DNA of 64,000 bases from Candidatus Poribacteria bacterium. GTDB lineage: Bacteria; Poribacteria; WGA-4E; WGA-3G. Of this stretch, positions 630 through 3,825 are shown piece after piece (the first letter of the stretch is position 1; every line of letters begins with the position of its first letter). Below the pieces are notes generated by a model. It made no database searches, was not told the origin of the DNA, and worked only from the letters and a program-made list of their open reading frames with translations. The DNA lies in NCBI GenBank assembly GCA_007571305.1, contig RKRR01000123.1:1-64000 (forward strand), given 5' to 3'. The translations under genes were made by a program, and so were the position numbers.

Positions 630-928
630 ATTCACTCGGACAAACATTGTGGATCACGCCTGTAGCGTGCTTTGCAACGTCCGAGTTGGTAGGTATTTAG
701 TTCTCCTATAGGGAGGCTCTCTGAATCTCGACGTATCCTGCGGAATCGACAGAAAATCAGAACTGAGTGTACCTACAAATGGATATAGAACGTTTTGTAG
801 ACAAAGTTATTTTGTATATCGGAGCGTAACAAATCAATTGTTCGTTTTCGTTTTTATAGGGGCTTGTAAGTGATGCCTATGGGTTTCCTAGCGGCGCGCT
901 GCAGTGCCTTGACTTGGGGGTGTGAAAA
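630..928 (+). promoter_or_regulatory. long structured 5' leader of infC
   Basis: About 300 nt without a convincing gene. Visible helices: ACTCGGAC (634-641) with GTCCGAGT (679-686), enclosing CACGC (655-659) with GCGTG (665-669); then GTAGGTA (689-695) with TACCTAC (770-776), enclosing AGTTCT (699-704) with AGAACT (759-764) and smaller hairpins. The nested, perfectly complementary stems imply selected RNA structure. In other bacteria infC-rpmI-rplT leaders mediate L20 or IF3 feedback. That this leader does the same is inference; no known Rfam motif was recognised by eye. Confidence 0.55.
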
Positions 929-1474
929 ATACACTACAGAGGCAGACGTACTCAGAGGACGAAGGAAAGACAAAGTCGTTCCAATTATCAGATTCGAGCC
1001 AAAGAAATTTTGCTGATAGATCACGAGAATAAGCAAATGGGGGTCATGGCACCTCGCGACGCAATGAAACTTGCGGAAGAAGTTGGATTGGATTTAGTAG
1101 AAGTTTCACCGAATGCCTCTCCTCCCGTTTGTAAAATCATGGACTACGGGAAGTATCAGTATGAGAAGAATAAGCGCGCACGCGAGGCTCGAAAAAAGCA
1201 GACGAAGGTTGTTCTGAAGGGAATGCAATTCCGCCCAGATACCGCCGAACACGACTACCAGTTCAAAAAGCGACATGTTGAGGATTTCCTGAAAAATGGA
1301 TGGAAAGTCCGTGCAACTGTCCGGTTCCGGGGACGTGAGATGCTCCATACCCAACTTGGTAAAAGTTTGCTTTCGCGGCTCAAAGACGACTTAGAAGAAA
1401 TTGCTGAAGTGGAACAACCTCCACGGATGGAAACCCGTATCATGTCGATGATCCTCTCACCAAAATCTGTGTGA
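929..1474 (+). CDS. infC: translation initiation factor IF-3 (AUA start)
   Basis: IF-3 binds the 30S subunit, prevents premature subunit joining and checks start-codon pairing. The protein matches IF-3 throughout, with YQIRAKEI, EVSPNASPPVCKIMDYGKY in the N-domain, FRGREM and a C-domain ending in MILSP. No ATG or GTG exists in frame upstream of the conserved N-terminus. A TTG at 1010 would delete the conserved first segment. The frame opens at 926, and an ATA at 929 preceded by GGGGGTG (916-922) gives 181 residues, almost the same as E. coli IF-3 (180), whose gene starts with AUU. A non-canonical start is typical of infC and allows IF-3 to repress its own translation. First gene of infC-rpmI-rplT. 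Confidence 0.93.
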   Translation: MHYRGRRTQRTKERQSRSNYQIRAKEILLIDHENKQMGVMAPRDAMKLAEEVGLDLVEVSPNASPPVCKIMDYGKYQYEKNKRAREARKKQTKVVLKGMQFRPDTAEHDYQFKKRHVEDFLKNGWKVRATVRFRGREMLHTQLGKSLLSRLKDDLEEIAEVEQPPRMETRIMSMILSPKSV

Positions 1475-1898: not shown

Positions 1899-2246
1899 AT
1901 GGCACGAGTAAAAACAGGGAGTGTGCGGCGCAAACGCCGTAGCCGGATACTTAAGCATTCTAAAGGTTACCGTGGCGGGCGGAACAACCTCAAACGCACC
2001 GCTAAAGAAGCAGTGGAGAAGGGATGGAATCACGCCTACGCACATAGACGCGCACGGAAACGAGATTTTCGGAGACTTTGGATCGCAAGAATTAACGCCG
2101 CCGCGAGATTACACGGACTTACCTACAGTCGATTCATACATGGACTCAAAGCTGCTGGTATTGAACTCGATCGGAAAGTTCTCGCCGACATTGCAGTGAA
2201 TGACGAAGCAGGCTTTGGACAACTTGCCACCCTCGTAAAAGGTTAG
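1899..2246 (+). CDS. rplT: 50S ribosomal protein L20
   Basis: 115 residues, typical for L20, starting [19 protein letters not shown], with the conserved GYRGGRNN and [18 protein letters not shown] segments and a C-terminal globular part ([20 protein letters not shown]). L20 binds 23S rRNA early in 50S assembly and in several bacteria represses its own operon through the infC leader. The start follows AATAGGAG at good spacing. Third gene of the infC operon; the T-box leader of pheS follows. Confidence 0.97.
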
Positions 2247-2368
2247 TTGTAGATTCGCCTCCCTTTTCCTGTAGAAGCGATCTCTGATCACGATAGGTAT
2301 TGGTAGAGGCTATACTACTCTCGCAGGAGAGTATATGGGAGCAATCAAGAAGGATACTTAATAGTAAC

Positions 2369-2680
2369 AAGGCGATGAAGGGACACACGTAAGCAGTTGG
2401 GACCTCTCAATCAGAAAGGCAGCGTCATCGGCTGGAAGCGCGGCTTTGAGAGCAGCTGCCGAATTTCATCCTGGAGCCAGAAACCCTACCTGGGGTTCCC
2501 ACTCGTTACTGAGAAGGGATACTGGGTCGGGCAAAAAAAAAATGAAGCGGGCAGATTTTAGGAGCGACCTCTCGGTTGCAGTAATCTGCCAAGCGGGGTG
2601 GTACCGCGGAAGTTGATGCCTGTCGCTTTCGTCCCCAGAAGGAGATAACCTTTATGGAGGCGGAGTGATAGGCGTTTTTT
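2369..2680 (+). promoter_or_regulatory. T-box riboswitch (tRNA-Phe specifier) upstream of pheS
   Basis: The T-box hallmark AAGCGGGGTGGTACCGCG is at 2591-2608; GGGG-UGGUACC-GCG can pair with CGUCCCC (2630-2636) to form the antiterminator with the bulge that binds the tRNA acceptor end. Stem I elements are visible: GGCGATGAAGGGA at the base (2371-2383) and a specifier segment GAATTTCATCC with UUC (Phe) at 2465-2467 followed by the usual purine. The competing terminator pairs GCCTGTCGCTTTC (2618-2630) with GGAGTGATAGGC (2662-2673), followed by six T (2675-2680). Uncharged tRNA-Phe should stabilise antitermination and induce pheS. No clear promoter was found; the rest of the 2247-2808 spacer holds a 2311-2335 hairpin and an AT-rich stretch before pheS. 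Confidence 0.92.
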
Positions 2681-2808: not shown

Positions 2809-3825
2809 ATGAAAGAAGAATTACAAGCGATTCAAGCGGAGGCACTTGAGGCTTTAAAAGTCGTGAAAACCCCAGACGCGCTTGAGTCGCTCCGAATCAC
2901 ATATTTTGGACGCAAGGGAAAACTAACCGATGTCATGAAAGGTATGGGGAAACTTTCCAAACAGGAACGTCCGGTAATAGGCAAACTTGCAAATGAGGTG
3001 CGTGCCACACTTACAGAGGCTTTTGAAGCCGCGACGCAGGTACTACGTCATCAACAACAGGAACAACAACTTGAAGCAGAAGCCGTTGACATCACGCTTC
3101 CCGGACGAAAGCCTGCCTACGGGAAAGCACACCCCATAATGCAAACGTTAGAGCGAATTGAAGCTATTTTCGGTCAAATGGGGTTTGAAGTGGTGACAGG
3201 GCCCGACGTTGAGACCGAGTATTACAACTTTGATGCCCTGAATACGCCTGCTGATCATCCGGCTCGCGACTTGCACGATACCTTTTACCTCACCGATGGA
3301 CACCTTTTACGAACCCATACTTCGCCCGTTCAGATCCGCGCCATGGAGGCCCAAAAACCACCGATCCGAATTATTGTGCCGGGGAAGTGCTATCGGGTGG
3401 ACTATGATGTCTCACACACGCCGATGTTCCATCAGGTAGAGGGCTTGTTGGTTGACACGCACGCCACTTTCAGCGAACTCAAGGGCGTTTTGACCTCCTT
3501 TGCCCGACAAATGTTCGGTGACCAGACACAGATGCGTTTCCGTCCTCACTTCTTCCCTTTTACGGAACCCAGTGCGGAGATGGATATCTCCTGTGCCGTT
3601 TGTCGAGGAAAAGGGTGTCGGAGTTGTGGCGGCACAGGCTGGGTCGAGATCATGGGAGCTGGTGCTGTGGATCCAGCGGTATTTGAAGCCGTGAACTACG
3701 ACCCAGATGAAGTTACGGGTTTCGCTTTCGGTATGGGAGTGGAAAGGATTGCGAATCTCCAGTTCCGCATCCCGGACATCCGCACCCTCTACGAGAACGA
3801 TCTCCGTTTCCTACGCCAATTCTAA
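2809..3825 (+). CDS. pheS: phenylalanine--tRNA ligase alpha subunit
   Basis: Charges tRNA-Phe as part of the alpha2-beta2 synthetase in the cytoplasm. The 338 residues match PheS: an N-terminal coiled-coil tRNA-binding arm (about residues 1-90), class II motif 2 around residue 194 (CYRVDYDVSHTPMFHQVEGL), the CAVCRGKGCRSCGGTGW insertion, and motif 3 GFAFGMGVERIA near residue 304. It lies behind a T-box leader, so expression should follow tRNA-Phe charging. pheT, which usually follows directly, is absent here and must be elsewhere; the next gene is unrelated. Confidence 0.97.
   Translation: MKEELQAIQAEALEALKVVKTPDALESLRITYFGRKGKLTDVMKGMGKLSKQERPVIGKLANEVRATLTEAFEAATQVLRHQQQEQQLEAEAVDITLPGRKPAYGKAHPIMQTLERIEAIFGQMGFEVVTGPDVETEYYNFDALNTPADHPARDLHDTFYLTDGHLLRTHTSPVQIRAMEAQKPPIRIIVPGKCYRVDYDVSHTPMFHQVEGLLVDTHATFSELKGVLTSFARQMFGDQTQMRFRPHFFPFTEPSAEMDISCAVCRGKGCRSCGGTGWVEIMGAGAVDPAVFEAVNYDPDEVTGFAFGMGVERIANLQFRIPDIRTLYENDLRFLRQF

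Follow-up and report, generated by a model that had tools for sequence, protein, structure and literature searches.

Introduction

T-box riboswitches have been sorted into classes that differ in what lies between Stem I and the discriminator-reading half of the leader. Class I is recognised by the S-turn of Stem II together with the IIA/B pseudoknot. In the available text of PMC10482949, Class II is glycine-specific and carries a single-stranded linker in place of Stem II. The available part of PMC7583486 holds that Stem II can be spared because GGC:GCC pairing is strong, and is essential only for A-U-rich codons; it also describes the RRRxG-Stem III-AA motif that flanks the discriminator. A Stem II deletion variant with a GCU specifier, in front of alaS in C. 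acetobutylicum, is without Stem II and IIA/B and, according to the portion of PMC4695836 at hand, responds to tRNA in vitro. Among the portions of the open-access literature at hand, the published Stem II-less T-boxes that we found are for Gly and in some cases for Ala. The distribution given in the accessible sections of the 2013 survey (PMC3766115) comprises Firmicutes, Actinobacteria, Chloroflexi and Deinococcus-Thermus plus Geobacter. For T-boxes of Poribacteria no publication was found in the open-access literature; TBDB may list some.

Here we describe a leader within a window of 64,000 nucleotides (contig RKRR01000123.1 of assembly GCA_007571305.1, Candidatus Poribacteria bacterium), in which we take the gene order to be infC-rpmI-rplT-T-box-pheS (names recognised from the sequence, pheS also by TIGR00468). 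As judged from its sequence, this Phe T-box departs from the published descriptions of both Class I and Class II.

A T-box between rplT and pheS

A first-pass annotation of the same DNA had put a UUC-specifier T-box ahead of pheS, and direct reading of the letters found its coordinates for the motif, the specifier and the terminator to be right almost to the base. The parts of the leader and the two flanking genes are as follows.

1899-2246, plus strand: rplT (ribosomal protein L20), an open reading frame, the gene upstream of pheS in most relatives
2369-2480, plus strand: Stem I, with K-turn/GA motif at the base, specifier loop, AG bulge and distal loop (Stem I model R2, covariation, RF00230)
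2461-2468, plus strand: specifier loop GAA-U-UUC-A, with the specifier UUC (Phe) at 2465-2467 (read directly)
2478-2543, plus strand: linker replacing Stem II and IIA/B, enlarged by a hairpin insert, without S-turn plus F-box (motif, fold)
2545-2592, plus strand: discriminator flank made of RRRxG (AAGCG, 2545-2549), Stem III (2550-2590) and AA (2591-2592) (read directly)
2591-2636, plus strand: T-box sequence and antiterminator (fold, letters, model R1); antiterminator parts are A1 GGGG (2595-2598), the bulge UGGUACC (2599-2605), A2 and CCCC (2633-2636)
2615-2680, plus strand: intrinsic terminator with U6 tail (fold), its 5' strand sequestering the antiterminator's 3' strand
2809-3825, plus strand: pheS, phenylalanine-tRNA ligase alpha subunit, 338 aa (TIGR00468, over cut-off)

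A default Rfam scan of the window at the gathering threshold was empty. With reporting by E-value over 2240-2810, the RF00230 covariance model matched 2366-2639 (plus strand) over all 219 model positions with 66.4 bits (E 3.1e-14); against the whole 4.8-Mb genome the same match had an E-value of 6e-14 and was the second of two strong matches. The gathering cut-off is 93 bits, so by Rfam's own rule the copy falls outside the family, a shortfall explained by the absence of Stem II and IIA/B. Two models built from relatives without the window copy (Stem I, n=29; core plus terminator, n=31; sequences hand-picked out of 66 for spread over the phylum) recognised it with 121.3 bits (E 5e-29; R2, locus L002 1504-1615) and 95.6 bits (E 4e-20; R1). 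From the Stem I set G058 (start missed by the pattern) and G028 (an insert) were excluded, and the alignment row of G067 was taken from the identical named locus L009. A mir-320 match in 2240-2810 was dismissed as chance (E 1.1), and the other RF00230 matches in the genome, on contigs C102 and C133, are weak (E 0.01-2.7) and lie in other contexts. Together, the RF00230 match and the held-out models bear out the T-box of the first reading, and by every feature testable from the sequence the element is a member of the T-box family with a predicted function.

The anatomy is that of a T-box: the motif AAGCGGGGTGGTACCGCG stands at 2591-2608, and the RRRxG-Stem III-AA flank is present in full. The terminator folds at -38 kcal/mol (z -5.1, with 0 of 200 shuffles as good) and Stem III at -19.8 kcal/mol (z -3.5). 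The antiterminator folds as GGGG, the 7-nt bulge, A2 and CCCC, with an energy that alone is no better than that of shuffles (z -0.6); the same is true of Stem I (z 0.06). Stem I is nevertheless present in the comparative alignment, where 97.9% of cells are paired and 19 of its 26 pairs have changed on both sides among 29 relatives; none of 500 shuffles reached as high, and sliding the alignment by 1-3 columns lowered pairing to 36-47%. Support for Stem I is thus covariation and not folding energy. In the terminator, 96% of cells are paired across 31 relatives and 5 of 16 pairs have changed on both sides, but shuffles pair nearly as often (94%), so that covariation is modest there and conservation does most of the work.

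Gene order and tRNA agree with this anatomy. The genome carries a tRNA-Phe gene with anticodon GAA on contig C108; A73 is its last base and CCA is not encoded, so that after CCA addition the ACCA end would fit the UGGU bulge. Since antiterminator and terminator share 2615-2636 (CCCC at 2633-2636 can serve in one only), the two are mutually exclusive. Very probably, then, the T-box controls pheS transcription by antitermination, and the predicted tRNA binding, charging dependence, read-through and effect on expression would run as follows. The UUC specifier of the nascent leader would pair with the GAA anticodon of tRNA-Phe. If the tRNA is uncharged, its ACCA end would pair with the UGGU bulge and hold the antiterminator, and RNA polymerase would proceed into pheS; if it is charged, the hairpin at 2615-2680 would form and transcription would end between rplT and pheS. 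In the window genus the sensor would be a reduced one, in which the linker joins Stem I to the unit of Stem III and antiterminator, as in glycine T-boxes. Against antitermination one can hold the score under the Rfam cut-off, the unremarkable folding energies of Stem I and the antiterminator, and the promoter search: no sigma-70-like promoter was found in 2200-2830, so that pheS would depend on read-in from the infC-rpmI-rplT operon or on a different type of promoter.

Two other modes of control could be imagined for a leader in this place. A translational T-box would mask a ribosome binding site instead of terminating transcription, and AGAAGGAG in the terminator loop, ahead of a four-codon frame (2654-2668), could be read in this way. 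The U6 run, however, ends 128 nt before the pheS start and is conserved in relatives, the pheS start region lies outside the hairpin, and the four-codon frame and AAGGAG are missing from some relatives, all of which makes translational control highly improbable. Ribosome-mediated attenuation by a Phe-rich leader peptide in the rplT-pheS gap would share place and gene order with E. coli, where the available text of PMC5371410 puts the pheM attenuator next to rplT, pheS and pheT. Here, the frames of the leader hold no more than 3 Phe in 54 codons, small ATG frames hold 0 or 1, and the leader contains all T-box parts, so that we give this mode practically no chance and retain tRNA-dependent antitermination.

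The start of the upstream operon has features of its own. No ATG, GTG or TTG precedes the conserved N-terminus of infC (window 986-1012), the first such start being a TTG at 1010, and the AUU at 992 may be the start codon, as in infC of E. coli, which is autoregulated through a rare start codon. Further upstream, a hairpin CUCGGAC...GUCCGAG in the infC leader (window 634-686; -25 kcal/mol for 620-700, z -3.4) has no Rfam match and may represent a leader element serving the infC-rpmI-rplT operon.

Stem II and IIA/B are missing from the Phe T-boxes of two related genera

The first-pass annotation had called the T-box near-complete. This holds for all other T-box parts tested, but not for Stem II and IIA/B, which are absent, and the absence extends well beyond the window. 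The S-turn plus F-box motif (GAA...TAGG...CGG...CCGTNA, a pattern written after the linkers had been inspected) occurs in none of the 46 pheS T-boxes of the window genus and its sister genus (g1 and g3), compared with 18 of 20 in other genera, where the two misses, G002 and G020, keep the F-box part. The distance between Stem I and Stem III has a median of 22 nt in the two genera (42 of the 46 copies being measurable) and of 76 nt elsewhere. At 72 nt, the window copy departs from its kin because of the hairpin insert in its linker; this hairpin, which is unlike Stem II, is short in the sister species G059 and absent from most relatives. Part of it (window 2492-2518) recurs as a 93% identical 27-nt copy at G000:C49:22695-22721, which suggests a small mobile repeat.

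A model of Stem II (R3), built from 21 ilvB Stem II domains, most of them from the same genera, matched 16 of the 20 pheS T-boxes of other genera exactly behind Stem I, if weakly (E up to 10), and an unfiltered search of some of the loci added G002 and G020. At this position it matched none of the 46 copies of the two genera. Because the matches are weak, the absence of Stem II is argued mainly from length and motif. Stem II is thus kept by the Val T-box ahead of ilvB in these very genomes and is missing from their Phe T-box, and the species of the window is no exception, as its second T-box is canonical, with Stem II and IIA/B:

G000:C132:74248-74528 (L001 1501-1781), minus strand: T-box before ilvB (acetolactate synthase), RF00230 95.7 bits

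In a protein tree of pheS from 21 genomes the two genera form one clade (96/90), and the adjoining genus g2 retains Stem II, from which a single loss follows. Neither the S-turn of Stem II nor the IIA/B pseudoknot of Class I is found in the window copy and the 45 others; a linker stands in for Stem II as in Class II, but glycine specificity is missing, the specifier being UUC and the gene pheS. The UUC:GAA duplex consists of two A-U pairs and one G-C pair.

Such Phe T-boxes might work by other means, or they might be weak or non-working; conservation of the specifier, the Stem I pairs, the bulge and the terminator over 46 species argues against the last. We consider it likely that these leaders make up a class of working T-boxes in which the A-U-rich UUC:GAA duplex is read without Stem II and IIA/B, and that the class became fixed in two genera after one loss at about their common ancestor. 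The specifier loop of the window genus (alignment A1, columns 18-24) has one extra base and a pyrimidine for the first A of AGUA (CGUA/UGUA), unlike that of the sister genus and the other genera. Perhaps this change is a compensation in the Stem II-less form.

T-boxes across Poribacteria and beyond

The first-pass annotation had thought a T-box in this lineage worthy of note. The phylum does lie outside the groups named in the accessible parts of the surveys, but the window copy is no isolated oddity, T-boxes being near-universal in Poribacteria. An RF00230 match (E up to 0.001) was found in 78 of 84 genomes, 60 of them over the cut-off; among 14 named control genomes there were five with a match (B. 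subtilis, Thermus, Deinobacterium, Corynebacterium and Lactococcus). There are usually two T-boxes, for Phe between rplT and pheS and for Val before ilvB. The Stem I model found Stem I at 66 of 83 pheS loci, in the same genomes as RF00230 (the G005 locus starts inside pheS and thus allows no judgement), and all 66 of these T-boxes carry GAA-N-UUC. The Val T-box has the specifier GUC in all 23 loci checked, followed by G; in most T-boxes the base after the specifier is A. The Phe T-box normally stands after rplT in relatives. In G039 the intact copy and the downstream pheS are separated by about 1.9 kb of other sequence (L160, G039:C15:55400-57900).

The nearest named pheS genes are from Candidatus Poribacteria MAGs, at 85 and 88% identity, the next being below 60%. 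In 50 genomes of other lineages, chosen from 78 non-poribacterial pheS relatives, one had a T-box (that of the Pelobacter locus L019); Pelobacter is already known as a case from what is accessible of PMC2494555. The poribacterial Stem I was absent from all 78 non-poribacterial pheS loci.

Departure of pheT and loss of the sensor

As the first-pass annotation had noticed, pheT does not follow pheS in the window; the next gene is a different one, and a single strong TIGR00472 match (889.5 bits) places pheT on contig C48. A T-box of its own for pheT was considered and rejected: RF00230 and the held-out models found none in the 1.5 kb of DNA upstream, and a trivial 12.6-bit match of the terminator model lies inside the pheT locus. 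Since pheT stands outside the operon, the T-box of the window species would adjust the alpha subunit only.

The split belongs to a group of 8 species that form one clade on a DNA tree of pheS (100/99; 36 of 40 loci, G053, G054, G055 and G074 being absent), and in most of these species the relocated pheT is preceded by DNA that they have in common. pheT left the operon once in this clade, and with T-box-pheS-pheT as the arrangement in relatives the split is the derived state. An assembly artefact was rejected as its cause, since eight species share the split and in G082, a single contig, the genes lie near 2.69 Mb (pheS) and 5.11 Mb (pheT).

Of 80 judged genomes, 66 have pheS and pheT side by side (T-box in 61) and 14 have them apart (T-box in 4, namely G000, which is the window species, G059, G007 and G008). 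Left out of this count ahead of the test were G003 and G005 (contig ends), G015 (no pheT), G076 (no pheS) and the second pheS of G026. A Fisher test that treats related genomes as independent gives p 1.4e-6 for linked versus split; a kinship-aware test had 3 independent pairs on supported branches and gave no significance. It is plausible that the split causes loss of the T-box.

Within the split clade the T-box is intact in G000 and G059 only. G052 lacks Stem I but has core and terminator, in G082 the core is damaged and the terminator present, and G051, G060, G065 and G073 retain the terminator alone, as do the linked genomes G031 and G033; in G006 a terminator-like hairpin is barely seen by the model (12.5 bits, E 0.85). 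The sensor-less terminators upstream of pheS are found at loci L204, L187, L176 and L183 (G031, G033, G060, G065) and L185, L177, L175 and L179 (G051, G073, G082, G052). Leftover and intact hairpins are of similar stability (median -28.8 kcal/mol, n=9, versus -30.05 kcal/mol, n=60, intact copies without a T-run by pattern being left out). In G031, G060 and G082 the T-run is separated from the pheS start by 14-44 nt, a gap too small for an ordinary promoter, so pheS in these genomes is probably supplied by leak through the terminator. A bold reading is that in several relatives the riboswitch has been reduced to a fixed attenuator, with the sensor gone and the terminator 14-44 nt before pheS.

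The pheS tree puts G060 beside G000 and G059. A tree of rplT-upstream DNA (without G052) groups it with G051, G065 and G073, in agreement with a shared deletion junction, and constraining these four to group together on the pheS tree was rejected at the borderline (p-AU 0.048). Recombination in the split clade is possible. In view of this conflict over G060, we describe the losses no more precisely than as three or more kinds of lesion.

As six of the other seven split species have lost the sensor, the window copy could itself be heading for decay, selection having gone when pheT moved and pheS being reached by terminator leak or from a promoter within 2680-2809. The three or more kinds of lesion among the 6 of 8 species without Stem I and the contrast between 61 of 66 linked and 4 of 14 split genomes both speak for such decay. 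The window copy, however, retains every invariant part with the pairing of Stem I and terminator intact; its Stem I score and that of G059 (120.1 bits) are inside the range of intact linked relatives; the association between split and loss comes down to the three non-significant pairs; and G007 and G008, which represent an independent split, still carry a T-box. We therefore regard decay as unlikely and keep to a working, tRNA-responsive T-box as the preferred reading.

Discussion

If the Stem II-less Phe T-boxes work, a strong Gly codon-anticodon duplex as the sole excuse for sparing Stem II would be an incomplete explanation; Stem I plus the discriminator would suffice, perhaps with the help of a modified position 37 of tRNA-Phe. 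Stem II and IIA/B seem to have been removed here with the codon UUC and were kept by the adjoining genus g2 before the same gene, which provides a sequence pair for testing the role of Stem II. T-boxes throughout a phylum also widen the distribution given in the accessible sections of the 2013 survey, and the split-operon clade displays stages of riboswitch loss among close relatives, in which the terminator outlasts the sensor.

Set beside the known systems, the window copy shares with Class I (the B. subtilis tyrS type, RF00230) the long Stem I, specifier loop, GA motif, AG bulge and distal loop, Stem III with its RRRxG and AA flanks, the UGGN bulge, antiterminator and terminator. It differs in that the S-turn of Stem II and the IIA/B pseudoknot are absent in its genus and the sister genus, whereas ordinary Class I T-boxes are found in the remaining genera of the phylum and, in the same genome, before ilvB. 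With Class II (B. subtilis glyQS) it has in common a short linker for the Stem II domain, with a median of about 22 nt here, but its specifier is UUC, with two A-U pairs, and the linker in the window also bears a hairpin. The alaS leader of C. acetobutylicum is likewise specific for an amino acid other than glycine and lacks Stem II and IIA/B; that one, however, has a GCU specifier and belongs to Firmicutes, while the form described here is for Phe and appears to have become fixed in two genera following one loss. The order rplT-attenuator-pheS-pheT and the amino acid are the same at E. coli pheM, which works by a leader peptide and the ribosome and has no tRNA-binding RNA.
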